A stretch of DNA of 32,838 nt from a virus. The DNA lies in the IMG/VR virus record IMGVR_UViG_3300043446_001863, positions 1 through 32,838 of that record; one strand, 5' to 3'. The position numbers and the translations under genes were made by a program. The notes beneath the pieces are model-generated. The model had not been told where the DNA came from. It saw only the letters and a list, made by a program, of their open reading frames with translations, and did not search any database. This document shows positions 61-19,561 of this stretch, piece by piece. The first letter of the stretch is position 1, and the number at the start of each line of letters is the position of its first letter.

Positions 61-3000
61 ATGGCAGAACCTCGCGCATACGGCATCCAACCCAACTTTC
101 ATCTGGATGCTGAGACTGCGTTACAAAACATCAGAAAGCCCGAGCGAGTTGGCTTGGACTTCTCTGACCTTGGATCGCCCCAAGCGGTCCCCGCTCAAGC
201 CCCTGCGCCACAGCCTGCGCCAGCAGCTAAGTCCGCCGGCGGCATTGAGCGCATTGGTCTGGACTTTATTGAGTCTCAGTCGAAGCCTGAAGGATCTACG
301 CCTCAGGCAACGCCCGTCTCTTTGCCGTTCAAGCAACCAGAAGAGGAAGGCTTCTTCAAGGGCGCTGCCAAGGCATTGTTCGGCGGCGCACAAGATACTG
401 CCGGCTCGATGTACTCCGCTGGCGCTACAACCATTGGAGCCAACGAGGCGGTAGTTGATTCTGCCAAGTCAGCGGCGGAGCGTCAGAAGACAGAAGCTGT
501 CGAGCTTGGCAAGTTCAAGCAAGACCTCGGTCGCCGTCAGGCTGCTGGGGATGACACCGTGTGGCAAGGCGTCAAGAACGTCGCCGGCGCTGCGTACGAC
601 AACCCAGAGGGCGCATTCCAGATGGTGCTGTCGCAGCTACCCAACAACGGCGTTTCTCTGGCTTCTGGCTGGGCTGGCGCTGAAGCTGGCATTGCTGCCG
701 GTACTCTCGTTGCGCCCGGACCCGGAACTGTTGTTGGTGGCGTAGCTGGTTTCCTGACTGGCTTGTTTGCTGCAAACACCGCATTGGAAGTTGGCGGCAA
801 GGCTCAAGAGAAAGCTCGTGACGGTCAGTTCACCGACAAAGAGCGTGGCGAAGCTCTGACAGAAGGCGTCAAGAAAGGCGCAATAATCACTGCCGTGGAT
901 GCAGTAACGCTTGGTGGATCCAAGTGGCTGCTAGGCGCAGCCAATCGAGCTGTAGAGACAGCAACGATGAGGACTCTGCAAGAGGCAGGCGTTGACACAA
1001 CCAAGGTGGCGATGTCCATCAAGGAAGCGCAGAAGGCTGCATTTGAAGCAACCGCAACGCAAGGTCGCGCCGTCTCTACTGACGCCATGTCGAAGGCGAC
1101 CATCGGAGTGATGGAGCGCGAAGGCTTGACATCCGCCGAGCTGGTGTCGAAAGTTCAAAGCGCACAAGCCGCAGCGATGGAGAGCGTCAACACACTTGGC
1201 AAGAAGGCTGGTCGTGGCGCTGCTGCCGTTGGTCTTGAGTCTGTTGGTGAAGGTTTGGGCGAATACTTGGGTGAGCTTGCTGCCACCGGGAAAGCATCGC
1301 CTACAGAAGCTGTTATGGAAGCTCTGTCCGGCTTATCAATGAGTTTGGGTGAGTTGCATGCTGTTGCTAAGGTTGAGAAACCCGGTCTCCTCACTGCCGC
1401 AACCAACACGATTTCAAAAGCAGATCAGACCAAAGATCCTCTAACAACACCAAAGACAAGCAAAGGCATGTCTTCTGGCGCTGATGCGCTCAACGCCGAC
1501 CTGACAGTTCTGGATGACCGCAAGTACATGGAGACTGCGTCATACTTTGACAAAGCCATCAAAGAGAACAAAGACGACTTGCTCAATGTCATGGCTGCGA
1601 TCTACAACCAAGTAGAACAATCAAAGACTGACAAGGCTGCAAGCGACGAGCAAAAGCAACAAGCCGATCAAATGCTTGGCGTAATCAACGCTGCTGCAAC
1701 TCGCCTGAGTTTGGCATCGGCGCTGGCTAACAAGATCAAGAGCAGCTCTTCTATCGAATCCGGTAACGAGTTCATGAGCCAATACCCAGACATGCGCGAG
1801 CGTTTGCTCAACCGCATGAACGACTTGGCGACCACCCTGCCAGCATCCTCTACTCCGAAGAAAGACAATCGTGCGCCACAAACAGTCGTGACGCCAATGT
1901 CTGAGGATGATGTGATGAATGCCCCGACTCCAATGGATGACGCGCAAACATCGAATACGAACAAACCGAAACAAACGATTGATCTTGGCGGTATTGTTGG
2001 CGCATCTGATCCTGTCGCTCAGATGGCGAACTACATCAAGTCAATCTCAAACCCAGAGGGAACTGCCGCTCTTGGCGGATTTAAGGAAGGCGCTGTCGAC
2101 AAGTATGGCGTTGTGCCTTGGGTTTCTGAAGATGGCAGCACCCGCCTGTTCACTCACAACCGAGTGCCTGACTTCGTCTTCAATTCCAAAGAGGACGCCA
2201 ACCACGCATATCAAGCACTGAAGCTGGCTAACGAGCAGATGAAGAATCGCCGTGAACAAAAAGCCAGCGAGAGCCTGAACAAGAACGAGCCACCAACAAT
2301 GGAAGAGGAGAACTCCAGTCTTGACGACTTGGATCTGCTCTACTCCAAAGACGCCACCGGCGTGAAGGCTGTCGCAGTTCCCGCTGAGAAGGCTGTGTAT
2401 TACAACGCAGAGAAGCTCGCCGGCATGACTGACAAGCAGCGCAAGGCGTTGGACCTGCACGAGATTGGCGCTCACATCGCTACCGAGCTGATGCTTGGCA
2501 ACGAAAAGTATGAAGCCTTGTTGTCAGAGCTTGAGTCTCTCAAGGGCAAAGACAAGATGGTCGACGAGGCATACGCCTCTTTGCCTGTCAACACAAACCC
2601 AGACTTGGTCAACACAGAGGCTCTTGGCTACTTGGTCGAGAACTACGAGAACATGGGTATCGTCCAGAAGTTCTTGCAGATGATCAAAGACTGGTACGCA
2701 AAGAACTTCAAAGGTCAGACCCTGACATCGACTGACTTGTATCGCATCGCTCGTGAGGCGTTTGCTACATACGAGAGCCAGATCGAGCGCAAGATCGTCA
2801 AGCCAGAAGATCTGCCATCAGATGGTTTGTTCAGCAAAGAGAATCCAACCATCCAAGACTTGGAAAAGGCTTTGCCTGCTGTTGTTCGCAGGATCCGTAA
2901 GGAACACGCCGACTCTCAAGCTGGCGTTCCAGAGAACCAACAGAAGAAGCTGACGCCCACAGAGGTTCAGCAGATCGTCAAGCAACGCATGGCTGCTAAA

Positions 3001-6000
3001 CCTGAGTGGGAGCAATTGGCTAAACACGCCACTCTCGCTCGCGTCATCAACGCAGAGCAGTCCAACAAGTCGGATCGTGAGGTTCTGAACAAGGACGGCG
3101 CAACCAAGAAGTTCACCGAGAGTAAGCGCGCAAAGAACTCAGAGTATCTGGACACCGGCTCAGATCGTGGTCTTGCCTCGTCAGAAGACACCAGCGAACT
3201 CACAGCCAAGGGAACCTTCAAGAAGGCTTACACAATCGAGGCTGAGAAGGTCTATGAGATGAACGAGGCGCAAGCCGTAACAGAAAAAAAGGTCAAGAAG
3301 AAAGACCTGTCGAAAGAAGATTCTCTTGTTCGAGATTTGACCGCCAAGCTTTCTGGAATTTACACACAGTCAAAGAGTGTCAAGTGGCTCCAGCAATCTG
3401 TTGACGATCTCGTCAGCCGATTGGAACAAAACGAGAAAGCTCTGGCTGATTACTATGTCTACAAAGAGGAGAACGATGATGGCTCAGTGACCGTCTATCG
3501 CCGCCTCAATGAAGACGAGGAAGGTATGGAAAGTTCGATCAGTCGCACTGGTCGTCTTGAGTCCGCTTCCGACTACTTCTCTGAAGACAACAATGCGGTT
3601 TTCACAAACCCAGAAACCAAGGCTGCGCTGCTCGCCGAGCGCCGCATCTTGCAGTTGCAACTTCAGGACGCCATGAATGACCGAGTGTCCAAGGGCGCTC
3701 GCTACTTCAAGCTTGGCATCATCCGCATCAAGCGAACAATGGACTTCGCAATCACAAGCGCAGAACGCGCTGGATTGTCACGCGAGAAAGCTGATGAGTT
3801 CCGCCAGCAATGGATTGCTCCGATCACGAACTACACAACCTACAGCAAGAAGGACAAAGCTCAGGCGCAAGATCAAGCTCAAGCAGAACTTGAGTCATTC
3901 TTGGAGAGCCTGAAAGAAAACCAAAGTGCAGTCGTCTTCCCAGATGATTTGCAGTTTGCTCAAAGCTTGTCTGTTGACCTCGCTGCAAGAAAGATCTCCC
4001 TGTCTGAGGCGATCAACCTACTCGATAAAGCAGCAGCAGCCAACGAGTTTGATAAAGGCTCGGAAGGAAAAGCAGCTGTCATTGAGTATTTGATGTCCGA
4101 GTTCATCGATGTTCATAATGCCCTGCCTGATGGTCAGGCTAAAACAAATCTGATGAACAACATCCTTGTCTTGGCGTCCAAAGCTCGCAAAGAAGGTCTC
4201 ATGCGCTTTGACAAGCTGAAAGACATGTTCAGCAAGCAAAGTAAAGATGTGCAGCGTGAAGTCCTGAAAATCACCGAGCCAGCCGCAAGCCGTGGCTTGA
4301 CTGACTACATGGCTGAACACAACTACGAGCCTGCATTCGTCTACTACTGGCTGCGCTCAATGGATCGCGTCGTCAAGTTCAATAGCGAACTGTTGAAAAG
4401 TCAGATGTACACAGATGCCGAGCGCAATCTGTACGAAGAGTACAAAGCACAGACTGGCAAAATCAATCGCAAGTTCTTGGCGCTGAACTACACACTCGAT
4501 CAGATGCGCAACATCGACGAGTTGCCATTGAACGAGCGCATGCGCATTCGTGAATTCTTTGGCGATCCTGTCGACGCTTACTTCCGCAGCATTCGTTTCG
4601 CTCAACATCATGGCTACTCCCTCAACTCTCTGACGGAGAGCATGACAGCCGCTGACAAGCAGCAGTTCATCAAGTGGCTCAAGAACGAAAAGCGCAAGAA
4701 CAAGCAAGACGCCGAACGCATGGAGCGTCAAAAGTATTTTGCTTACATCAGCCAGTTCAAGAATGTTGGCGACGCAACGCTTGCATCTCTGCACAAGATG
4801 ATTGCGCAGGACTCAATCGCAAACCTGCCAATCATCTATGACCTGATGCCAAGCATCGAGCGTTATGGCTTCAACAAGATGGATCTTGATGTTGAGACCG
4901 GCGAGCTTACCAAGTTCAAGTCGAGAGAAGATGTAGAGAAAGAGTTGGCAAAGGTTAAGTCTGGTGAATCTTCTACCGTCTTCAAAGCCAAACCTAAGAA
5001 GAAACCAGCAGTCGGCTCGGAAGGTCGTGAGGTTCTTGATTCTTTTGCCAAGCGCCTGTCTGTCAAGCCAGAGATGATCGACGCCGTCGAGTTCTCTCCA
5101 GACGACAAAGGCACTGGATCACTTGCGCTCGCTGATGTGTACATCAAGGGTGAGGCAACGCCACGCCAATTGCGTACGCAAGAAATCTCTATCGAGATGG
5201 CTCGCTTCGCAATCGACATGCGCGACAACGGTCCTCAGGCTGAGGCTTCAGAGAACGACATCGAGATGTTCGAGCAAGGCATGGTGTCCAACATCATGAA
5301 CTCGCTGTGGAATCCATCCGGTCGTGCAATGACTGGTGACGCCAGCATGAACAAGGCTCCGTTCTTGGACTTCGAGACCTATCGTGACGCCGTCGAAAGC
5401 AACACCACAACCTTCTACGAAGACAGTGAGCAAGCTGGCGTTTACGACGAAGAAGACATTGGCAACATGATGACCGAAGGCGCTACCTTGGATGAGGTTG
5501 GCGAGCTTGCTGGTCTGAGCGAACCAAAGGAAGTGGAAGACTCTGAGGATGGCGAAGACGATCTCCGCACACGCCAAGGTCAGTATGTCGGCTACCTCAA
5601 CACAGCCTATGTCACCAAACTGGTGAACAACATCACCAAGACTTGGAAGGATGCGCCTCACATTGTTGTGCTGCAAAACCACATGCAGCTACCAGAAGGC
5701 ATTCGAGAGGAAGTCTCACGCAAGCTGCAAAAGGGAATGGGCGCAAAAGGTTTGTTCGACGGTTCAACCGGAACGATCTACCTGTTCTCCAACTTCTTGT
5801 CGTCTGCTGACGATGTGCAGTTCACCCTCTTCCACGAGGCGTATGGTCACTTGGGCTTGCGCTTGATGTTTGGTCAAGAGTTCGACCAGTTCTTGAACAA
5901 CGCCTACAACTCCAGCCCTGCGGTTCGCGCCGATGTTGATGCTCGCCTCAAGCGTGGCGGTATCGGAAAGCTGGAAGCTATCGAAGAAACTCTGTCAGAC

Positions 6001-9000
6001 TTTGCTGGCTCGAACAAAGAACCCGGCATGGTGAAGAACTTCATCGGTCGCATCATCTCTGGTCTGCGCAAGATTGGTCTTGACCGTGTTGCAAACTACA
6101 TTGGCGGATTCACCGACGCAGAGCTGGCTTACTCACTCAAGGCGGCGAAAGGCTACGCACAGAACTTCGGCAGAAGCCCATTGATGAGTGGTCCTACTGA
6201 CCTGCGTCTGTCTGATGAGCGCCCTCCTTACGAGATCTTCGCCAAGAAAGGTGTCAACACCGTTGGCTACGCTCGCTACGACCCATTGACTGGCGAATAC
6301 TACCTGTTCAAGGCAACTGGCAACGACATTCGAGCTGGCAGCAAGATGGAAATCTTGAAGACCTATGAGGAAGTCGTGCAGAAGATGGACAAGATGGGTG
6401 TTCTCGAGCGCCGTGTCCGTTCCGGATTCTTCCGTGACAACAAGATGCCATCAGACTTTGTTCAGTACTTGAACTCCAAGCAAGTTGGCTGGTTGCAAAG
6501 CAAACTTGATCCAATCATTCGCAGTTTGCAGAACCAGTACCTTCCTGTGTTCCGCATTGTCGAGCAGATGGAGAGCTACCAAGGCAAGAACCGTGTCACC
6601 GGCAATCTTGATCTGCGCAAGTACCTGCGACTGAATGAGCGTCAAACCGCCGTGAAGGTGGAAGACTTTGATCGCAACTATGTGCAGCCGATCATGGATC
6701 TGGTTCGTGAAGCGGAGAAGACTGGTGGTCAGTTCCTGACATCGGAAGGCGCTACCGACATCTACACCATGCTGAACAAGTTCTTGCTGGCGCAAACCGC
6801 TGAAGAGCGTAACCGTCAGGTAAACAAGCGTGATCCAGAGAACTTTGCTGGCTCTGGTATGGCGTCTTCATCCTCCGTGTTGGCTGATCCTCAGAAGCAC
6901 CCAGAAGATACCGCCAAGAAGGTGTTGGACTTCGTTGCGTCTCAGCCGTACGCCAAGCAGTTTGAAGAGATTGGCAACAAGCTTGACGCCATGTCACGCC
7001 AAAAGGTCAAGTGGGAAGTTGATTCAGGCTTGATCACTCCTCAAGAAGGCAAGGCTCGCCTCGATGCATACAAGCACTACCGCAACCTGTCCGGCATCAA
7101 CTCCGAACTGGATGACAACTACACCGGTGACCCATCGCTCAACATCGGTCGCAAGTTCAACCTGCGTGGCAAAGACAAATACGCAACAGGTCGTCAGGAC
7201 GAGGCTCCAGACATCTTGGCGCGCACACTTGTCGGCGCTGAAGCATCGATCATCCGTGGTCAGAAGAACTTGGTGGCTCAGCGTCTGTTGGCGTTCTTTG
7301 AAACCAACTACGATCCAAACTTCATCTCGATCAACGAGCAGTCGTTCCGTCGTGTGGTTGACCCAACAACCCAGTTCATCGAACTGCGTGAGAACACCAA
7401 CTACCTGAACCAGCCTGATGTGATGGTCGTCAAGGTGAATGGTCGTGTTGTCACGATTCGCTTCAAAGACACTGGCTACAACACTGTCAACGAAGCAATC
7501 CACGGCAAGAGCGAACCTCAGTCCGAACATCCGTTCCGTCAGATCATGCGCATCTGGGGTCGCTTCGCTGGTGACATGATCACCAAGTACAACCCATTCT
7601 GGATCCCTGTCAACTTCGTGCGTGACGTTCAAACCCTGTTCCTGAACAGCGGCGTCAACGGCGAGGTGGGCTGGAAGATGGCTGGAGAAATGGCGAGAGC
7701 TTTGCCAAGCGCCATGTACACCACTCTCTACGCAGCATTGGATGAGATGCGCCCATCGACAGACAAAGGCAAGAAGGCTCGTGACTTCCTCAAGGGCATG
7801 CTGAGTCCAAACCAAGAGATGCTCGACCACTATTACAAGGGTCGCAGCAAGGGCGCGTTCACATCGTTCATCAACCACAAGAACCTTGAAGATCAGATCA
7901 TCGAGATCAACGAGGCGATTGCTGGTAAGAGTACCGTTGGCAAACTCGAGGGCTTGCTCAAATTCTGGGAAGTTCTCACGATCCCAGTTGAAATGGCTCC
8001 TCGTCTCGCCGCCTACTCGACGATGGTCAAGAACGGTCGTGCAGAGATTGACGCCGCAGACTACGCTGGTAGCGTGACCGTTGACTTCAACATGCGTGGC
8101 TCCAACGAGTTTGTTCGTGCCGCTTACTTGTTCTTCAACCCCGCCGTTCAAGGCACAGCCCAGCTGTTCAAGTTGATGACCAAGAATCCCAAGCAGTTTG
8201 GCATCGTTGCCGGCGGTCTAATGACCCTCGGCTTCTTGTCAACATTGCTTGTGCGTTCATTGGACATCGATGGCGATGAGGATGAGAGCAAGAAGAAGGC
8301 TCGCAAAGAGCGTGGCATGAGCGCCTTGGATGAGGTTCCAGATTACAAGCGAGCAACCAGCTTGATCTTGATGCCAAACCAAGCGTTTGGGGCAATCCCT
8401 GTGGCTTACGGCTGGAACGCATTCTTTGCCGCCGGCGCTTTCATGGCTGATTCTGTGGTCGGCAAGGTTCCCGCATCGATCTCTGCGCAAAGAACCCTGC
8501 AAGCATTCGTTGAAGCGTTTGTTCCTGTTGGCGGCTCTGGCTTTGACCTCACGAAAGTGGCGTCTGATCCGGTTGGTCAAGCTATTGCACTCGCCGCCCC
8601 GACAGTGGCTGCGCCAATGGCTCAGTGGTACACCAACACCAGTCGTCATGGCGGACCCCTGTACCCAACAGGTCAGTTCTCCAGCAATGCTGGCGAGTCG
8701 GATACGACCAAGGCGTTTGCCTCCGTCAATCCGATTGCCAAGGGATTTGCCGAAGGCTTACAAGAGCTTACAGGCGGAGACCGCCGCAACCAGAAAGGCA
8801 TCGACCTCAACCCAGCTCTGATCGATCACTTGGTTCAGAGCTACATGCCCGGTATCGCAACCGAGATGTACAAGGGCGCTGGCGTGGCTGTTCGCAAGGC
8901 TCAAGGGTTGGATGTGCCACGCGAGAAGCAGCCTCTGGTCGACCGTTTCTCCGCCAACTCGCAAGAGGCATTCGACAACTCGGCTTACCACCGGATCGAC

Positions 9001-9336
9001 GCAGCTGTAAACGCCGCATGGCACGAGTACGAGAAGCACCCAAGCACAGACAAGCGAGCCAAGGAACTCCTCCAAGAACACCCAGAACTGGGCAAGATGA
9101 AGGATGTGATGCGAGCTGCTGAATCAGAGCTTCGCAAAGCCTCCAGCCAACTCAAGAAGGCAGAGGACGATGCTTACATCCTACGCAAGGACGGTCAAGT
9201 TGAGCGAGCCGACGCAATGGACAAGGCAAATGTCGAACTGAGGAACAAGACTGAGAAGGCTAAGCGATTGGTCTACAGCAGGGTCGTGACTCAGGCTGCT
9301 AAGTCTGGATTCAGGGATGAGATCTACTCACGATAG
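61..9336 (+). CDS. giant polyvalent phage virion/ejection protein (LPD38-like C-terminal region)
   Basis: A 3091-residue protein with an AGGGGG ribosome site just before its ATG. Phage polyvalent proteins of this size are thought to be packed in the virion and injected with the DNA; that role is inferred here. Visible in order: a Pro/Ala-rich N terminus with two copies of ER(V/I)GLDF (residues 28-34 and 63-69); a Gly/Ala-rich hydrophobic stretch (about 209-246); a first HExxxH segment (H800, E801, H805); long charged helical regions; a second HExxxH segment (H1925, E1926, H1930); then a region resembling LPD38 (N2511-P-F-W...N2518-F-V-R-D, and FFNPAVQGT at 2691-2699) followed by a hydrophobic helix (2714-2731). 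The C terminus is Lys/Glu-rich and coiled-coil-like (about 3020-3080). No lysozyme or polymerase motif was seen. Domain names are from memory; that it is a single intact phage polyvalent protein is well supported. Confidence 0.9.
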   Translation: MAEPRAYGIQPNFHLDAETALQNIRKPERVGLDFSDLGSPQAVPAQAPAPQPAPAAKSAGGIERIGLDFIESQSKPEGSTPQATPVSLPFKQPEEEGFFKGAAKALFGGAQDTAGSMYSAGATTIGANEAVVDSAKSAAERQKTEAVELGKFKQDLGRRQAAGDDTVWQGVKNVAGAAYDNPEGAFQMVLSQLPNNGVSLASGWAGAEAGIAAGTLVAPGPGTVVGGVAGFLTGLFAANTALEVGGKAQEKARDGQFTDKERGEALTEGVKKGAIITAVDAVTLGGSKWLLGAANRAVETATMRTLQEAGVDTTKVAMSIKEAQKAAFEATATQGRAVSTDAMSKATIGVMEREGLTSAELVSKVQSAQAAAMESVNTLGKKAGRGAAAVGLESVGEGLGEYLGELAATGKASPTEAVMEALSGLSMSLGELHAVAKVEKPGLLTAATNTISKADQTKDPLTTPKTSKGMSSGADALNADLTVLDDRKYMETASYFDKAIKENKDDLLNVMAAIYNQVEQSKTDKAASDEQKQQADQMLGVINAAATRLSLASALANKIKSSSSIESGNEFMSQYPDMRERLLNRMNDLATTLPASSTPKKDNRAPQTVVTPMSEDDVMNAPTPMDDAQTSNTNKPKQTIDLGGIVGASDPVAQMANYIKSISNPEGTAALGGFKEGAVDKYGVVPWVSEDGSTRLFTHNRVPDFVFNSKEDANHAYQALKLANEQMKNRREQKASESLNKNEPPTMEEENSSLDDLDLLYSKDATGVKAVAVPAEKAVYYNAEKLAGMTDKQRKALDLHEIGAHIATELMLGNEKYEALLSELESLKGKDKMVDEAYASLPVNTNPDLVNTEALGYLVENYENMGIVQKFLQMIKDWYAKNFKGQTLTSTDLYRIAREAFATYESQIERKIVKPEDLPSDGLFSKENPTIQDLEKALPAVVRRIRKEHADSQAGVPENQQKKLTPTEVQQIVKQRMAAKPEWEQLAKHATLARVINAEQSNKSDREVLNKDGATKKFTESKRAKNSEYLDTGSDRGLASSEDTSELTAKGTFKKAYTIEAEKVYEMNEAQAVTEKKVKKKDLSKEDSLVRDLTAKLSGIYTQSKSVKWLQQSVDDLVSRLEQNEKALADYYVYKEENDDGSVTVYRRLNEDEEGMESSISRTGRLESASDYFSEDNNAVFTNPETKAALLAERRILQLQLQDAMNDRVSKGARYFKLGIIRIKRTMDFAITSAERAGLSREKADEFRQQWIAPITNYTTYSKKDKAQAQDQAQAELESFLESLKENQSAVVFPDDLQFAQSLSVDLAARKISLSEAINLLDKAAAANEFDKGSEGKAAVIEYLMSEFIDVHNALPDGQAKTNLMNNILVLASKARKEGLMRFDKLKDMFSKQSKDVQREVLKITEPAASRGLTDYMAEHNYEPAFVYYWLRSMDRVVKFNSELLKSQMYTDAERNLYEEYKAQTGKINRKFLALNYTLDQMRNIDELPLNERMRIREFFGDPVDAYFRSIRFAQHHGYSLNSLTESMTAADKQQFIKWLKNEKRKNKQDAERMERQKYFAYISQFKNVGDATLASLHKMIAQDSIANLPIIYDLMPSIERYGFNKMDLDVETGELTKFKSREDVEKELAKVKSGESSTVFKAKPKKKPAVGSEGREVLDSFAKRLSVKPEMIDAVEFSPDDKGTGSLALADVYIKGEATPRQLRTQEISIEMARFAIDMRDNGPQAEASENDIEMFEQGMVSNIMNSLWNPSGRAMTGDASMNKAPFLDFETYRDAVESNTTTFYEDSEQAGVYDEEDIGNMMTEGATLDEVGELAGLSEPKEVEDSEDGEDDLRTRQGQYVGYLNTAYVTKLVNNITKTWKDAPHIVVLQNHMQLPEGIREEVSRKLQKGMGAKGLFDGSTGTIYLFSNFLSSADDVQFTLFHEAYGHLGLRLMFGQEFDQFLNNAYNSSPAVRADVDARLKRGGIGKLEAIEETLSDFAGSNKEPGMVKNFIGRIISGLRKIGLDRVANYIGGFTDAELAYSLKAAKGYAQNFGRSPLMSGPTDLRLSDERPPYEIFAKKGVNTVGYARYDPLTGEYYLFKATGNDIRAGSKMEILKTYEEVVQKMDKMGVLERRVRSGFFRDNKMPSDFVQYLNSKQVGWLQSKLDPIIRSLQNQYLPVFRIVEQMESYQGKNRVTGNLDLRKYLRLNERQTAVKVEDFDRNYVQPIMDLVREAEKTGGQFLTSEGATDIYTMLNKFLLAQTAEERNRQVNKRDPENFAGSGMASSSSVLADPQKHPEDTAKKVLDFVASQPYAKQFEEIGNKLDAMSRQKVKWEVDSGLITPQEGKARLDAYKHYRNLSGINSELDDNYTGDPSLNIGRKFNLRGKDKYATGRQDEAPDILARTLVGAEASIIRGQKNLVAQRLLAFFETNYDPNFISINEQSFRRVVDPTTQFIELRENTNYLNQPDVMVVKVNGRVVTIRFKDTGYNTVNEAIHGKSEPQSEHPFRQIMRIWGRFAGDMITKYNPFWIPVNFVRDVQTLFLNSGVNGEVGWKMAGEMARALPSAMYTTLYAALDEMRPSTDKGKKARDFLKGMLSPNQEMLDHYYKGRSKGAFTSFINHKNLEDQIIEINEAIAGKSTVGKLEGLLKFWEVLTIPVEMAPRLAAYSTMVKNGRAEIDAADYAGSVTVDFNMRGSNEFVRAAYLFFNPAVQGTAQLFKLMTKNPKQFGIVAGGLMTLGFLSTLLVRSLDIDGDEDESKKKARKERGMSALDEVPDYKRATSLILMPNQAFGAIPVAYGWNAFFAAGAFMADSVVGKVPASISAQRTLQAFVEAFVPVGGSGFDLTKVASDPVGQAIALAAPTVAAPMAQWYTNTSRHGGPLYPTGQFSSNAGESDTTKAFASVNPIAKGFAEGLQELTGGDRRNQKGIDLNPALIDHLVQSYMPGIATEMYKGAGVAVRKAQGLDVPREKQPLVDRFSANSQEAFDNSAYHRIDAAVNAAWHEYEKHPSTDKRAKELLQEHPELGKMKDVMRAAESELRKASSQLKKAEDDAYILRKDGQVERADAMDKANVELRNKTEKAKRLVYSRVVTQAAKSGFRDEIYSR

Positions 9337-9538: not shown

Positions 9539-10621
9539 TTAGCCGTTGTGCGCAATTTGTGTCACCACCGCCGGTGGCTTCAAAATTGAGTCCAACACCC
9601 CTGCTGATTGCGCCAGATGCTCCACGCTCAGATGGCTGTACCGCTGCACCATCGAACGCTGCTTCCATCCGCCCAGTTCTTGGATCAAGTCCAAGCCTAC
9701 TGAGCCACTCTGACGCAGCCAACTAGCCCATGTATGGCGAAGGTCATGCCATCGGAAATTCTCGATGCCAGCCTTCTCCAAAGCCTTCTTCCACATCTTG
9801 GAGGGGATGTCTTGGACTCGCTCACCATCAGCGCGAGGAAAGACCCAGACATCTGACCTGCCAAGCTGTCTTCGGATTGCACCCATCGCCGTCTCGTTGA
9901 GCGGTATGGTCAAAGGCTTGCCGTTCTTCATGACCAGATCAGGGAACGTTGCCGTCCTCCGAGCCATGTTCACAAACTCCCACTGCAAACCAGCCACATT
10001 GTTGCGTCGCAGACCTGTCGACACCGCAAATGTTGCCATGTTGCAATAGGGTTCTGGCAGACTCTGAACCAACCGAGCAAACTCGTGTGGCTCTAAGTAC
10101 CGCACCCGCTCGTTGTCTTCCTTGAAACCCTTAAATACAGGGCGAGAATCCAACCACAGGTACTCCCGATGCGCTGCATTGATCACCGACCGCAGCAGCG
10201 CCAGCTTCCGGTTCACCGTTGAGGGGGAAACAAAGCGCTCGACATTCTTTGAGCGCAGGTGCTTCCTGCCCACTTCAGCGTCCCGAATTTCCTTCACAAC
10301 ATCTGGCGTGATCTCATCCAAGAACACCAGCTTGTAGAGTTTGAACTGCTCACTCCACCAGTCGGCGCTACGCTGGTCATCCTTCCATGAGCGTTTATGC
10401 TCGTGTTCGTTTAACCACCGCTGGACAGTCTCAGCCCACGTTCTACGCACCTTCTCTTTGACAACAGAGTGTCGCCAAGCGGCGGCGCGTTCACGGTCAT
10501 AGAACTCTTGAGCCTGCTTGAAGTCATTCGTCTTGCAGGTTCCTCGAAATACTTTGCCGTTGAGCGTGAAGCGGTAATGCCAGACATCGCCTCGTTGATA
10601 CAAGTTTTTTTGTAGTGACAT
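9539..10621 (-). CDS. int: tyrosine-family phage integrase
   Basis: A 360-residue site-specific recombinase that would cut and join attP with the host tRNA-Asn gene. The N terminus looks like an arm-binding region, the middle (about 55-160) like a SAM-like core-binding domain. The catalytic domain has R205 (in TGLRRNNV), a lysine in the beta hairpin (K232 or K235), H292-x-x-R295 (HDLRHTWASW), W319 at the second His position (LGGWKQRS) and the nucleophile Y328 (QRYSHL). Length and motif spacing are normal, so it should be active. The start has a good ribosome site (AAGGAGAGG) and a strong promoter upstream. It lies beside the attP core and on the same strand as the early operon, whose last gene stops 81 nt before it, so read-through could also express it. 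Confidence 0.96.
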   Translation of the reverse strand: MSLQKNLYQRGDVWHYRFTLNGKVFRGTCKTNDFKQAQEFYDRERAAAWRHSVVKEKVRRTWAETVQRWLNEHEHKRSWKDDQRSADWWSEQFKLYKLVFLDEITPDVVKEIRDAEVGRKHLRSKNVERFVSPSTVNRKLALLRSVINAAHREYLWLDSRPVFKGFKEDNERVRYLEPHEFARLVQSLPEPYCNMATFAVSTGLRRNNVAGLQWEFVNMARRTATFPDLVMKNGKPLTIPLNETAMGAIRRQLGRSDVWVFPRADGERVQDIPSKMWKKALEKAGIENFRWHDLRHTWASWLRQSGSVGLDLIQELGGWKQRSMVQRYSHLSVEHLAQSAGVLDSILKPPAVVTQIAHNG

Positions 10622-13155: not shown

Positions 13156-13367
13156 TGCTTTTCCAATCGTTCGATCTCTCTGTTGATATACCAAGCTGCT
13201 TTCTTGAGATCTTCGATTGCGCTTGGGGACTTGAGTCCTGCTCGCCAAACATATTTCACTGCATTACCCAGATTGAAGTTCATGTGTTCAGTTACCTGAA
13301 TGCACTCAACCCCAGACGGATGACTTCGGTAGTGAGTTGGTTTGTTTACTGGATCGTGTTCTTCCAA
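13152..13367 (-). CDS. DUF3310 family protein
   Basis: About 71 residues: DPVNKPTHY near the N terminus, then GVECIQVTEHMNF, LGNAVKYVWRAGLK and a helix AIEDLKKAAWYINREIERL. This matches DUF3310, a small phage family often found beside nucleotide-metabolism genes; its activity is not established as far as I know. The start is uncertain. A TTG at 13367 gives the usual short N terminus and has a purine-rich site (AAGGAAAAGAAGG). An ATG at 13427 has no visible ribosome site and would overlap the previous gene by about 120 nt. Confidence 0.82.
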   Translation of the reverse strand: MEEHDPVNKPTHYRSHPSGVECIQVTEHMNFNLGNAVKYVWRAGLKSPSAIEDLKKAAWYINREIERLEKQ

Positions 13368-13515
13368 CCTTCTTTTCCTTTCTTGGAATAACTGTTTCCT
13401 GTGTTGCGTATATGTAGCCGCAGTCATCGCACTTGCGTCGTCTACGATTTCCAAGCTTGTTGCGTCTCGTCTCAAGAACAAATGAAACGCCGCAGCTACA
13501 CAATGGGCAGTACAT
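13306..13515 (-). CDS. NrdR-like zinc-ribbon protein
   Basis: A 69-residue protein starting MYCPLCSCGVSFVLETRR, followed by NRRRRKCDDCGYIYATQE. The pattern CPxC, a basic RRRR stretch, CxxC and then aromatic-TQE matches the zinc ribbon of NrdR, the regulator of ribonucleotide reductase genes, but the ATP-cone domain is absent. It may be a DNA-binding regulator. The start overlaps the preceding stop as TGATG. Its last 62 nt overlap the DUF3310 gene in another frame. Confidence 0.75.
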   Translation of the reverse strand: MYCPLCSCGVSFVLETRRNKLGNRRRRKCDDCGYIYATQETVIPRKEKKVGRTRSSKQTNSLPKSSVWG

Positions 13516-13793
13516 CAACTAGCTTCCGCTGGCTCATTAACCTTTGATAGACGACTGTGAATCTCTTGCGTGATTTCGAACGCAAGCTTTTCTCTGTGAT
13601 CCATGTTCAAGTCTTGAGCATCCAACATCATCTCAATCATGATGATCGAGACATTGAGCCAGTCAGATGGAGAAATGATTTCTCGCTTCTCCATGACTTC
13701 TTGCCACCACTCATGCAGGTACAACTTAATGTATGTCTGCTTGAACAGGGCTTCCGCCTGTTCCAGCTTGGCTTCCACTTCCTGCTGATTCAT
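13515..13793 (-). CDS. hypothetical protein
   Basis: A 92-residue, acidic, all-helical protein (MNQQEVEAKLEQAEALFKQT...). The ATG at 13793 has AGGAG six bases upstream, so it is preferred over the in-frame ATG at 13808. Its first 68 nt overlap the 3' end of the HTH gene in another frame. It shows hydrophobic and Trp positions (LHEWWQEVMEKRE) but no known motif. Confidence 0.7.
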   Translation of the reverse strand: MNQQEVEAKLEQAEALFKQTYIKLYLHEWWQEVMEKREIISPSDWLNVSIIMIEMMLDAQDLNMDHREKLAFEITQEIHSRLSKVNEPAEAS

Positions 13794-15873: not shown

Positions 15874-16443
15874 TTAACACTTAATTATTTTGTGTGTAAC
15901 TTTGCCTTTTATGCTAATCAACCCTGACGCCTGCAAAGGTATTGTCATAGGCGCATCCGATACCCCTGCTATCGTTATGTCATCGCCATCAATCTCGATC
16001 TTTAGCAGTGCTTCTTTTCCACCGATGCCGGCTAGGTAGAGTCCATTACCGATGGCGGTGTCATCCTTGTCGATCACGATGAAGTCAGCGCCTCCACTCA
16101 TACGCCTCATATCTGGCGTTGCTTCAATCAGATCGTCGTGCATGGGTATGCCTAGCATGGCGCGCTTGGCGTCTTTCTCAGGGCTTCCTGATAGGGCTGC
16201 TGCCCTTTCGGAGATGGCGCTCACCGGTACATTCAAGTACTTGGCGAACTTCAATGCGATCTCGATGTTCAGAGGGATACGCCCATTCAAATACTGGCTC
16301 ACTGCTGACTGATTTGCGAAGCCAAACTCCTTGCTTGCATCAGCCTGAGTCAACCCCATCGCTGCACTCTTCTTATCCCAGATTTCACGGAGCTTCTCCG
16401 TCTCTTTCAACTCGACCGTGGTAAACGCCCTGCGCTTGTTCAT
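15874..16443 (-). CDS. CI-like phage repressor (XRE HTH, S24-like C terminus)
   Basis: A 189-residue protein. The N-terminal XRE-type helix-turn-helix spans about residues 18-75 (GLTQADASKEFGF, NQSAVSQYLNGR, IALKFAKYLNV). The C-terminal part (about 115-189) looks like the beta-rich LexA/CI domain (GADFIVIDKDDT, GNGLYLAGIGG, ISIKGKV). I do not see the serine motif (SMxP) or a clear catalytic lysine of cleavable repressors, so induction may not go through RecA-stimulated self-cleavage. It has a good ribosome site (AGGAG). It is transcribed in the same direction as the early left operon, away from the replication operon, and keeps lysogeny by inference. Confidence 0.85.
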   Translation of the reverse strand: MNKRRAFTTVELKETEKLREIWDKKSAAMGLTQADASKEFGFANQSAVSQYLNGRIPLNIEIALKFAKYLNVPVSAISERAAALSGSPEKDAKRAMLGIPMHDDLIEATPDMRRMSGGADFIVIDKDDTAIGNGLYLAGIGGKEALLKIEIDGDDITIAGVSDAPMTIPLQASGLISIKGKVTHKIIKC

Positions 16444-16476: not shown

Positions 16477-16505
16477 TTGATTAGCAGTATTAGCTGTGCT
16501 AAAGT
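16477..16505 (+). promoter_or_regulatory. rightward early promoter overlapped by an operator
   Basis: TTGATT (16477-16482), 17-nt spacer, TAAAGT (16500-16505) read toward the replication genes. An inverted repeat TTAGCA-N10-TGCTAA (16481-16502) covers the spacer and both box edges, as expected for a repressor-controlled promoter. The -10 match is moderate. Confidence 0.55.
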
Positions 16506-16536
16506 ATCTCTCGGTCTTTAACTACATGGAGAGGTA

Positions 16537-16582
16537 TTGCTAATGAATGTTTCGCTTTGCAAACCAAAGTATACATTAGCAA
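16537..16582. repeat. inverted repeat TTGCTAATG ... CATTAGCAA
   Basis: TTGCTAATG (16537-16545) and its perfect reverse complement CATTAGCAA (16574-16582) contain the same TGCTAA/TTAGCA half-sites as the operator at 16481-16502. They are probable further repressor or Cro-type binding sites. Confidence 0.55.
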
Positions 16583-16797
16583 AGATTTGTGTCAAGAGTA
16601 GCAGTGCTATTGCGCACAGATGTTTTGTGTGTATAATTTTCCCGAAGGGAAATAAAAGAGGTACCCATAGGTTGGGTACACAGGGGTTCAGAGGTTCCCC
16701 AAGAAATTTTCATAAAGAAAATTTAAGAGGTTCACATAGCATAGGTACCCATAGCATGGGTACACATAGTGCAACCCAAGTCTGGGAGGCTCTATGA
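16543..16797 (+). CDS. possible small repeat protein ORF over the iteron region
   Basis: An 84-residue frame (MNVSLCKPKYTLAKICVK...) with GGAGAGG 8 nt before the ATG and a stop that overlaps the primase start as ATGA. Its second half is a repeated G-(T/S)-H-S-(I/M) pattern produced by the 15-bp DNA repeats, because 15 is a multiple of three. It also contains a strong promoter and AT-rich palindromes. It may be a real leader gene that couples translation to the primase, or an accidental open frame over a replication origin. It holds the position of a cro gene but shows no HTH. Confidence 0.35.
   Translation: MNVSLCKPKYTLAKICVKSSSAIAHRCFVCIIFPKGNKRGTHRLGTQGFRGSPRNFHKENLRGSHSIGTHSMGTHSATQVWEAL
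16610..16637 (+). promoter_or_regulatory. second rightward promoter upstream of the iterons
   Basis: TTGCGC (16610-16615), 16-nt spacer, perfect TATAAT (16632-16637). Transcription from here would run through the iteron array into the primase-helicase gene and could help open an origin. Confidence 0.6.
16660..16773 (+). repeat. 15-bp iteron array, candidate replication origin
   Basis: Units of about 15 bp based on GGTACCCATAGCATG: two tandem at 16660-16674 and 16675-16689, a partial one at 16693, then three tandem at 16729-16743, 16744-16758 and 16759-16773. Between the groups is an AT-rich palindrome (AAATTTTC...GAAAATTT, 16695-16715 region). Two units also form hairpins (GTACCCA/TGGGTAC at 16661-16679; GTACCCAT/ATGGGTAC at 16745-16763). 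Iterons flanking an AT-rich segment directly before a primase-helicase gene match the layout of iteron-based phage origins such as that of P4. Origin function is inferred. Confidence 0.6.
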
Positions 16798-18512
16798 GAA
16801 GTTTCCACGACTATGGCATCGACCTAGAGGGCAAGTCCGGCTCCGAGGTCAAGGTCACTTGCCCCAAGTGTTCCCATCTACGCCGCAAGAAATCCTACCC
16901 ATGCCTCAATGTCAACACCGAAAAAGGCGTATGGCATTGCTGGCATTGCGGATGGAGTGGCGGTCTTGTTCAGGGCGAATACAACGCTCCGACCGTCTCC
17001 CACAAGAAGCTGTTCTTCAAGCCTGAGCATCGCCCCGGTGCGCTCACTGATTCGGCACTCAAGTTCTTTGAGGATCGTGGCATCACCATCGAGGTGCTGG
17101 CTCGTAACCGCATCGCCATCGAGCGGGTGTGGATGCCTCAGCTTGAAGACGAAGCCAACTGCGTGGCGTTCCCCTACCTGCGTGGCGGTGAGGTTGTCAA
17201 TGTCAAGTATCGAGACAACAACAAGAACTTCCGACAAATCTCTGGCGCAGAGAAGATCCTCTACAAGTACGACGACATCGATGACGAATGCACCATCATC
17301 TGCGAAGGCGAGATGGATGCGCTGGCGCTCGAGGTTGCCGGCTTCAAGAACGCAGTGTCTGTACCTGATGGCGCACCCGCACCCACAGCCAAGACGATGG
17401 ACACCAAGTTCAGCTTCCTTGAGGACGAGCGCCTCGACAAGGTGAAGCGATTCATCTTGGCGGTCGACAACGATGAGCCGGGGCGCAAGCTCGAAGAAGA
17501 ACTCTCACGCCGTCTTGGTCGTGAGCGTTGCGCCAAGGTCACATGGGTGCAGGGTTGCAAAGACGCCAACGATGTACTGATCCGCATGGGCGCAGATGTC
17601 CTGCGTGAATGCATTGATTCGGCGCAGAGTTACCCAGTCGAAGGCGTTGTCTCTGTGTTCGACATCGAAGATGACTTGCAGAACCTGCTTGACAATGGCT
17701 TGCCACAAGGTGAGCCAACAGGTTGGCAGTCAGTCGACAAACTCTACACCCCTGCCGCTGGTCAATGGACATTGGTCACCGGTATCCCATCGATGGGTAA
17801 GAGCGAGTGGCTCGATGCATTGGCGATCAACATCGCCGAGTCAGCAGGATGGGTGTTCGGTGTCTGCTCACCGGAGAACCAGCCCATCACATGGCACACC
17901 GCCAAGCTGTTGGAGAAGCGCATGTCCAAGCGCATCAAGGCTGGCGCTGTCACTGAGCGTGAGTTCACCGAAGCCAAGCACTGGTTGGCGCATCACTTCC
18001 ACTTCATCCTGCCGGAGCAACCAACTCTGGAGAATGTGCTGGATAAGGCGAAGGTTCTTGTGCGCCGTCATGGTCTCAAGGGTTTGATCATTGACCCATA
18101 CAACGAGCTTGATCACACACGCCGCAAGGAAGGTATCAGCGAGACAGAGTATGTCTCCTCGTTCCTCACTCAGCTACGCACATTCGCACGTCAGCAGTCA
18201 GTTCACATCTGGTTGGTTGCTCACCCAGCCAAGCTGTTCAAGGACAAGGACGGCACATACCCAGTGCCAGATGGCTACACCGTCTCTGGCTCTGCCCACT
18301 TCTACAACAAGGCAGACAACATCATCGCTGTCCATCGAGATACAACCAACCCCAACGCTTCAACTGAAGTCCATGTTCAGAAGATTCGTAGCCGTTGGCT
18401 TGGCAACCGTGGCATTGCAAACCTCAAGTGGCGTCCCGACTGTGGTCGCTTCTGGGATTACGCAGATACGGTTGCGGCATTCGAGCCATACCGAGGCAGA
18501 CAAGACGACTGA
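16794..18512 (+). CDS. T7 gp4-like primase-helicase
   Basis: A 572-residue bifunctional replication protein. The N-terminal zinc ribbon has C23, C26, C49 and C52 (CPKC, CWHC). The TOPRIM primase domain shows CEGEMDALA (E171 to D175) and AVDNDEPG (D225, D227). The C-terminal RecA-like helicase has Walker A GIPSMGKS (330-337), Walker B LIIDPYNE (D434) and WLVAHPAK, as in DnaB and Twinkle helicases. It would unwind DNA and lay primers at the fork. It is the first well-supported gene of the right early operon and follows the candidate iteron origin, to which it might bind. Complete length and all key motifs are present. Confidence 0.95.
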   Translation: MRSFHDYGIDLEGKSGSEVKVTCPKCSHLRRKKSYPCLNVNTEKGVWHCWHCGWSGGLVQGEYNAPTVSHKKLFFKPEHRPGALTDSALKFFEDRGITIEVLARNRIAIERVWMPQLEDEANCVAFPYLRGGEVVNVKYRDNNKNFRQISGAEKILYKYDDIDDECTIICEGEMDALALEVAGFKNAVSVPDGAPAPTAKTMDTKFSFLEDERLDKVKRFILAVDNDEPGRKLEEELSRRLGRERCAKVTWVQGCKDANDVLIRMGADVLRECIDSAQSYPVEGVVSVFDIEDDLQNLLDNGLPQGEPTGWQSVDKLYTPAAGQWTLVTGIPSMGKSEWLDALAINIAESAGWVFGVCSPENQPITWHTAKLLEKRMSKRIKAGAVTEREFTEAKHWLAHHFHFILPEQPTLENVLDKAKVLVRRHGLKGLIIDPYNELDHTRRKEGISETEYVSSFLTQLRTFARQQSVHIWLVAHPAKLFKDKDGTYPVPDGYTVSGSAHFYNKADNIIAVHRDTTNPNASTEVHVQKIRSRWLGNRGIANLKWRPDCGRFWDYADTVAAFEPYRGRQDD

Positions 18513-18784: not shown

Positions 18785-19076
18785 TGAAACAGTACGCAGT
18801 CGAAGACTGTTGAACATGGCGAAGGATCAACCATGCGTAGCGTGTAACGCACATGATGGAACGATAGTCGCAGCACACAGCAACTTGCTTGAGCATGGCA
18901 AGGGCGCGGGACACAAGGCTCATGACTGCATGAGCGCGTGGCTGTGCCATCGCTGTCATTCCGAGTATGACCAAGGCAAGACCATGAGCAAGGATCAAAA
19001 GAGAGAGTTCATCTTGACCATGATTTGTAGAACAAATATCCGGCTGTGGCAGTTGGGAATGATTGGATGTAAATGA
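18777..19076 (+). CDS. HNH-like zinc nuclease (DUF1364-like)
   Basis: A 99-residue protein with C20-x2-C23, H34 (VAAHSNLLEHGKG), D50 and C57-x2-C60-H61 (CHRCHSEYD). The order and the GKGAGHKAHD segment resemble the DUF1364 branch of HNH nucleases found in recombination regions of lambdoid phages. It would nick or cut DNA, perhaps at recombination intermediates. The start is ATG at 18777, six bases after CCGGAG. It overlaps both neighbours by 4 to 8 nt. Confidence 0.75.
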   Translation: MFDETVRSRRLLNMAKDQPCVACNAHDGTIVAAHSNLLEHGKGAGHKAHDCMSAWLCHRCHSEYDQGKTMSKDQKREFILTMICRTNIRLWQLGMIGCK

Positions 19077-19561
19077 CGAGACTTGTTGTGCAGCTTACAC
19101 AAGCTGAAGTCGATATGTGTGTAGTGCTTGCGGCTCAACGCAATATGGTTGCAAGAGGTAGCAATGTTGTTGATAGACAGATTGGTAAGCAGTCTGCTTT
19201 GAAAACAGATTACATCGGAATGGTTGGGGAGTTTGCTTTCTGCAAATACTTCAATGTGTTCCCTGATTTGGCGGCATCTCCTCGATCTGGCTCATGCGAC
19301 TGCGTATACAAGGGTGTTCGCATTGACATCAAGTCAACAGACTTGGAGACAGGTAGGTTGCTTGCGACCACCAAAGAGAACATAGATGTTGATCGTTATG
19401 TCTTGGCGATTGTCATTGGCAACACAGTCACCTTCCCGGGGTGGATCGATAAAGAAGATCTGATTCGTGAAGAGAACTTAATCGATCTTGGTCACGGCAA
19501 AGGATACGCCATAAGACAGAGTCAGCTTAATCAATTCAAAGGAGTGGCGAATGGAGATTGA
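19073..19561 (+). CDS. PD-(D/E)XK-type endonuclease
   Basis: A 162-residue protein with a compact nuclease core: GMVGEFAFCKYF (E53), SGSCDCVYKG (D76) and RIDIKST (D85, K87), the E...D...DxK order of the PD-(D/E)XK fold. The later region (WIDKEDLI) is beta-rich. It starts with an ATGA overlap on the HNH gene. Its place between an HNH protein and RusA suggests DNA processing during replication or recombination. Whether it acts on junctions, flaps or host DNA cannot be told. Confidence 0.72.
   Translation: MTRLVVQLTQAEVDMCVVLAAQRNMVARGSNVVDRQIGKQSALKTDYIGMVGEFAFCKYFNVFPDLAASPRSGSCDCVYKGVRIDIKSTDLETGRLLATTKENIDVDRYVLAIVIGNTVTFPGWIDKEDLIREENLIDLGHGKGYAIRQSQLNQFKGVANGD

Follow-up and report, generated by a model that had tools for sequence, protein, structure and literature searches.

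The alpha protein of satellite phage P4 is a primase and SF3 helicase that also binds the origin, and the primary origin of T7 consists of a promoter followed by AT-rich DNA. In phage lambda, the origin lies in gene O, where iterons with inverted-repeat character and an AT-rich tract are part of the reading frame of the iteron-reading initiator. Extra iterons in lambda-related phages add 13 residues to O, in frame (PMC7466680), and transcription from the repressor-controlled rightward promoter across the lambda origin activates it (PMC3985674). On the plasmid-type side, the leader S004 of SGI1 runs into the start of the replication gene repA, and it has been proven that the start, hidden in a stem-loop, is opened by the translating ribosome (PMC7826253); the coupling of tap to repA in R1 is also known (summarized in PMC12779154).

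Here, we analyze a 32,838-bp virus record of IMG/VR, the whole stretch of which is referred to as the window. The phage is probably temperate, judging from its integrase gene (9539-10621), and, among named bacteria, the closest genomes that encode a related primase-helicase (~50% identity) come mostly from betaproteobacteria, including Sulfuritalea, Paraburkholderia, and Achromobacter. A gap of 350 bp separates a leftward repressor gene from a rightward primase-helicase gene and contains an early-type promoter with an operator, a leader open reading frame (ORF) with a good ribosome-binding site, two palindromes, and two groups of 15-bp repeats, five units in all. We propose that a replication origin in this gap lies within a leader ORF whose translation is coupled to that of the primase-helicase, as a lambda-like in-frame origin joined to a plasmid-type coupled leader, and we give this reading a probability of about 0.65 from comparison of sequences. 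Two known controls, the in-frame origin of lambda and the coupled leader gating a replication gene in R1 and SGI1, would then be joined in one 300-bp segment, and the phage would make its primase-helicase only from RNA that had crossed its own origin. No account of such an arrangement in phages turned up in literature searches, which were largely confined to papers outside subscription journals.

As in lambda, iterons with inverted-repeat character and an AT-rich tract lie inside a reading frame, changes in repeat number stay in frame, and the presumed origin is downstream of a repressor-controlled rightward promoter. Unlike in lambda, where the frame encodes the initiator, the frame here is a nonconserved leader of 84 codons, unconstrained as a protein and without a recognizable DNA-binding domain, and the next gene encodes a T7-type primase-helicase. 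The short leader overlaps the start of a replication gene hidden in a (here predicted) stem-loop as in tap-repA and S004-repA; unlike those leaders, it belongs to a phage and holds presumed origin DNA elements, and no antisense RNA was found. A replication gene near repeats is shared with P4, but the enzyme here is of another family, with TOPRIM and DnaB_C domains in place of an SF3 helicase with an origin-binding domain, and does not seem to recognize the repeats. The enzyme family is that of T7 gp4, and a promoter followed by AT-rich DNA recalls the primary origin of T7; unlike in T7, iterons are present and no phage RNA polymerase promoter was seen.

Layout of the gap and its promoters

The features of the gap and its two flanking genes are listed in Table 1. 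For comparison, we used 80 loci with related primase-helicases, plus further loci. Loci with an AT palindrome, defined as TTTC-N3-6-GAAA in A/T context, form the AT group and were compared with a sister group that lacks the palindrome. The tree places the AT type in two separate lineages and makes one of them the sister of the palindrome-less group; the AT type may be ancestral to the wider clade and later lost in that group. Elsewhere in the window, a giant protein of 3,091 amino acids (61-9336, plus strand) has relatives with 29 to 48% identity in all full-length genomes checked.

Table 1. Features of the gap between the repressor and primase-helicase genes, with positions in the window
Feature	Position	Strand	Basis or remark
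Divergent XRE-family (HTH_3) repressor gene	15874-16443	-	Pfam HTH_3, 1.5e-7
Rightward early promoter-like site, TTGATT-17-TAAAGT	16477-16505	+	Consensus match; operator TTAGCTGTGCTAA (16490-16502) over its -10
Shine-Dalgarno GGAGAGG of leader ORF	16528-16534	+	Sequence; kept in L003
Leader ORF, 84 codons, from ATG 16543, stop overlapping primase start (ATGA)	16543-16797	+	Open-frame test
Probable repressor promoter, TTGACA-16-TATACT, overlapping a TTAGCA half-site	16568-16595	-	11/12 consensus match
Possible second promoter, TTGCGC-16-TATAAT, weak -35	16610-16637	+	Not called by promoter scan
Palindrome 1, ATTTTCCCGAAGGGAAAT	16636-16653	.	Identical in L003
Iteron group 1, two 15-bp units	16660-16689	+	Degenerate continuation to 16703
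Inverted repeat GGGG/CCCC	16683-16686/16697-16700		Within continuation of iteron group 1
Palindrome 2, AAATTTTCATAAAGAAAATTT, AT-rich	16704-16724	.	Equivalent in 13/13 AT-group loci, 0/17 others
Iteron group 2, three 15-bp units (two in L003)	16729-16773	+	Conserved block of window and L003 ends here
Predicted hairpin over primase start region, CATAG..CCCA....TGGG..CTATG	16765-16796	+	Predicted fold; uses end of last iteron
Primase Shine-Dalgarno GGGAGG	16784-16789	+	Paired, with start codon, in the hairpin
Primase-helicase gene (Zn-binding motif, TOPRIM, DnaB_C; T7 gp4 type)	16794-18512	+	Pfam/PHROG; best solved relatives T7 gp4

A TATAAT promoter had been noted before the repeats by the first-pass annotation. 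Its -10 hexamer is perfect (16632-16637), but the best -35 matches the consensus at 3/6 positions and the scan leaves the site uncalled. The conserved rightward promoter-like site lies upstream of TATAAT and overlaps the operator; its spacing, TTGnnn-17-TAnnnT, recurs in most AT-group members, and a palindromic operator core is found in many. This site is recognized from its consensus match alone and is not called by the sigma-70 scan. The repressor genes of the window and of its nearest relative, L003, are 53% identical in nucleotides and 36% in amino acids, whereas the adjoining operator regions are ~95% identical, which marks a mosaic break near the repressor start. On the minus strand, a terminator-like stem with a T-rich tail (16661-16679), inside iteron group 1, could end leftward antisense transcripts.

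Repeats, palindromes, and strand asymmetry

The first-pass annotation had described 15-bp repeats in two groups around an AT palindrome with the primase-helicase gene directly after them, and this description holds. The five units of the GGTACCCATAGCATG type are in register, namely, GGTACCCATAGGTTG at 16660, GGTACACAGGGGTTC at 16675, GGTTCACATAGCATA at 16729, GGTACCCATAGCATG at 16744, and GGTACACATAGTGCA at 16759, and the last ends 20 bp before the primase ATG. These tandem direct repeats exceed chance: the interval 16651-16800 has the top direct-repeat score among 654 intervals of the window (26; next nonoverlapping interval, 10), its 26 near-repeat 10-mer pairs compare with 0.9 in shuffles and were never matched (0/200), and GGTACCCATAGNNTG with up to 3 mismatches occurs 15 times versus 3.8 expected, a count reached by 0/100 shuffles. 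An iteron pattern scan of the viral collection found no carrier besides the contig of L003, searches of known phage DNA and plasmid DNA with the locus gave no match, and an Rfam search gave nothing above threshold.

The palindrome that had escaped the first-pass annotation, palindrome 1, lies ~69 bp upstream of palindrome 2, and these are the only two TTTC..GAAA palindromes in the window. Significant direct repeats accompany the palindrome in 12/13 AT-group loci, compared to 2/17 other loci. The DNA beside the repeats is easily opened as well: duplex stability of the gap upstream of the primase gene is the lowest or nearly the lowest in the genome (<0.1% of the window is lower, and in G001 the gap is the absolute minimum), and the least stable 100 bp of the window fall within the gap taken as a whole.

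Does strand asymmetry also change here? A cumulative GC-skew analysis, which the first-pass annotation had called for, puts a local minimum at the locus or close to it, both in the window and in most full-length relatives; in the window the minimum is broad (~15.5-18.4 kb). Gene strand alone is insufficient to account for the switch, because minus-strand genes alone also switch, with a top-strand skew of -0.03 to -0.10 to the left of the locus and 0.00 to +0.05 to the right. All nine genomes that allow this comparison, the window included, agree, with a weight below that of nine cases since the relatives are not independent. The sign change is thus present with gene strand held constant, at a resolution of ~1 to 2 kb. 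Perfect DnaA boxes (TTATCCACA), 1 to 3 each, occur in the same gap of five sister-group loci (L011, L022, L024, L026, and L041), and the two in the gap of G002 are the only ones in its 59.8-kb genome. A DnaA-box cluster in the window itself was considered and rejected: its only TTATNCACA is a single TTATACACA on the minus strand (16628-16636), inside the possible second promoter and within the -10.

Across the AT group, the repeat sequences are unrelated. GGTACCCATAGCATG is found in the window and L003, TGTTAATAACACATA, also of 15 bp, in L045, and an 18-bp CTATAG unit in L004; L048 carries a 63-bp duplicated block of palindrome plus repeat, and the two palindrome blocks of the window are spaced 69 bp apart. 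The window and L003 are ~95% identical from ~16474 to the end of the last iteron, beyond which 7/20 bp are identical, and in the downstream flank the synonymous sites of the primase gene are highly diverged (pS 0.54). Their changes in the leader are spread evenly over codon positions (8/8/10), indicating that the DNA (or RNA) is conserved and not the peptide in particular. This is the opposite of the pattern that the first-pass annotation had named as evidence against an origin, i.e., repeats varying freely under a conserved peptide. The low divergence could come partly from recombination of the 300-bp block. Taken together, the skew switch, the DnaA boxes of the sister group, the codon-independent constraint on DNA, and the low duplex stability indirectly support the origin suggested earlier, and a replication origin of a temperate phage is the most likely identity of this region.

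The leader frame and the primase start

The repeats had also been seen as an open frame ending at the primase ATG. The overlap is confirmed (TGA at 16795-16797), and the frame extends further upstream than described, to an ATG with its own Shine-Dalgarno sequence. Compared with shuffles, the open frame is modestly unusual in the window (P ~0.008) and very unusual across the relatives (P ≤ 0.003 in most); P is ≤0.01 in all tested AT-group members except L012, which has no frame, and L035, where an N blurs the result. All AT-group members with the open frame overlap the replication gene start by ATGA, GTGA, or another short overlap. The frame is mostly absent in the other group, with fairly long open frames also in the sister-group loci L023, L026, L029, and L030. 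A leader Shine-Dalgarno sequence is clear in the window, L003, L034, and L036 and unclear in L004, L008, L009, L010, and L045.

The primase start region folds more strongly in the AT group (60 nt; mean, -15.5 kcal/mol; z, -2.25) than in the other group (-7.1 kcal/mol; z, -0.11), and the start region differs in accessibility between the groups (Mann-Whitney P ~1e-5, for loci that are not independent). The start is thus sequestered by a predicted stem-loop at the level of the clade, and the hairpin of the window itself is moderately unusual (z, -1.7). The stems differ in sequence between phages, for example, CATGCCAAG/CTTGGTATG in L004, and in L008 the start codon is changed to GTG with its pairing partner altered to match. 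L012 has the palindrome and repeats of the AT group but neither the open frame nor the start hairpin. Frame and start hairpin thus occur in the same phages and are both missing in L012; this fits translational coupling of the leader to the primase-helicase, as in tap-repA of R1, in which leader translation would gate primase synthesis, and it lends support to the earlier suggestion of a leader peptide over the origin. Several repeat periods, not all, are multiples of three, in keeping with a need to preserve an open frame.

The coupling also fits a second explanation, in which the gap serves purely as a regulatory leader: the primase would be controlled, through translation or antitermination, by operators, promoter, RNA hairpins, and a coupled upstream ORF, and replication would start elsewhere or without a fixed origin. 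Operators and promoter-like sites are indeed present, the RNA is strongly folded (z, -4.8), and L003 has A-T in place of the outer G-C pair of the GGGG/CCCC inverted repeat, a double compensatory change that keeps the pairing. However, such a leader has no need of tandem 15-bp direct repeats, translation through the region would undo the RNA hairpins, L012 retains the palindrome and repeats without a coupled frame, and the skew switch and the relatives' DnaA boxes point to an origin. We regard this explanation as possible but unlikely.

A third explanation, that the ORF is a real, fast-evolving small protein, such as an anti-repressor or an initiator-like protein, with the DNA repeats as its repeat domain, appears improbable. 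The frame is open far beyond chance in most lineages, and the short stretches QA.YI and LA...LY.IY are common to the leaders of L034, L036, and L264. Against a protein stand the equal distribution of substitutions over codon positions between the window and L003 and the leader pN close to pS in L004/L005, about the neutral rate (L033/L034 show a milder bias), compared to a pN/pS of ~0.1 or less for the primase. Moreover, the palindrome is translated in different frames in different phages (NFFKK versus FSLRK), and the 84-amino-acid leader has no family match or domain in Pfam or PHROGs. The leader peptide itself seems to have no function.

The reader of the repeats and a possible course of events

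Which protein reads the repeats? The first-pass annotation suggested the primase-helicase, as in P4, or a co-encoded factor. The primase-helicase gene is directly adjacent, but recognition by its product is very improbable, since the enzyme is of the T7 gp4/TOPRIM-DnaB type, without an SF3 helicase or an origin-binding domain, and ends soon after the helicase domain with no extra C-terminal domain, and since the enzymes of the window and L004 are 85% identical throughout while their repeats are unrelated. A complete change of repeats between such similar enzymes makes the primase-helicase an unlikely reader, and it probably does not read them. This natural series, in which the origin repeats change completely and the replicative enzyme barely, offers a comparative route to the initiator. 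Pfam, PHROG, and shared-gene comparisons identified no initiator gene. Among genes present in the window and L003 but not in other relatives, one at 19073-19561 (PHROG, function unknown) stands out, too weakly to be put forward as the initiator. A stand-alone NrdR-like zinc ribbon of 70 amino acids (13306-13518, minus strand; Pfam, 8e-9), in which no further NrdR domain was found, was considered as a possible reader but is not put forward as one.

For an origin inside a coupled leader, the following course of events can be envisaged. After release of the XRE repressor from its TTAGC/GCTAA operators, RNA polymerase would start just to the right of 16505, and rightward transcription would cross the palindromes and iterons and activate the origin, by analogy with lambda pR. 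Ribosomes would start at the leader ATG, translate the iteron region, and terminate at the TGA overlapping the primase ATG, and their arrival would open the hairpin hiding the primase Shine-Dalgarno sequence and start codon. In this way, most of the primase-helicase would come from transcripts that extend across the origin, a view supported by the joint presence of frame and hairpin among members of the clade. A phage- or host-encoded initiator, rather than the primase-helicase, would bind the iterons, and helicase loading would follow melting of the AT palindrome. In-frame repeat periods (15, 63, and 69 bp) would allow gain and loss of repeats without closing the frame.

In several relatives, sigma-54-type promoter motifs (TGGCAYRNNNNTTGCW) lie beside the AT palindrome, on one side or on both, and are directed toward it. 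Relative to the primase start, they are found at -170 and -27 in L010, -129 in L036, and -192 in L264 and, on the minus strand, at -29 in L004 and L008, with a further one at the contig end of G007; all matches are perfect save for one mismatch at -27 in L010, and the genomes of G001 and G007 have no perfect match other than the one at the locus. The window and L003 have none at the locus. It is a tentative and rather doubtful generalization that a clade of phages has its origin within a leader that is translated to license the primase-helicase, that origin transcripts in several relatives come from inward sigma-54-type promoters (TTGGCAY-N5-TTGCW, to one side of the palindrome or to both), and that the repeat sequence is swapped between phages while the layout stays fixed. 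A perfect minus-strand motif of the same type also occurs at +14.4 to +15.6 kb from the primase in G008, G002, G006, and G004, near the least stable DNA and, in G008, G002, and G004, near the GC-skew maximum; it is a probable promoter of the leftward operon.
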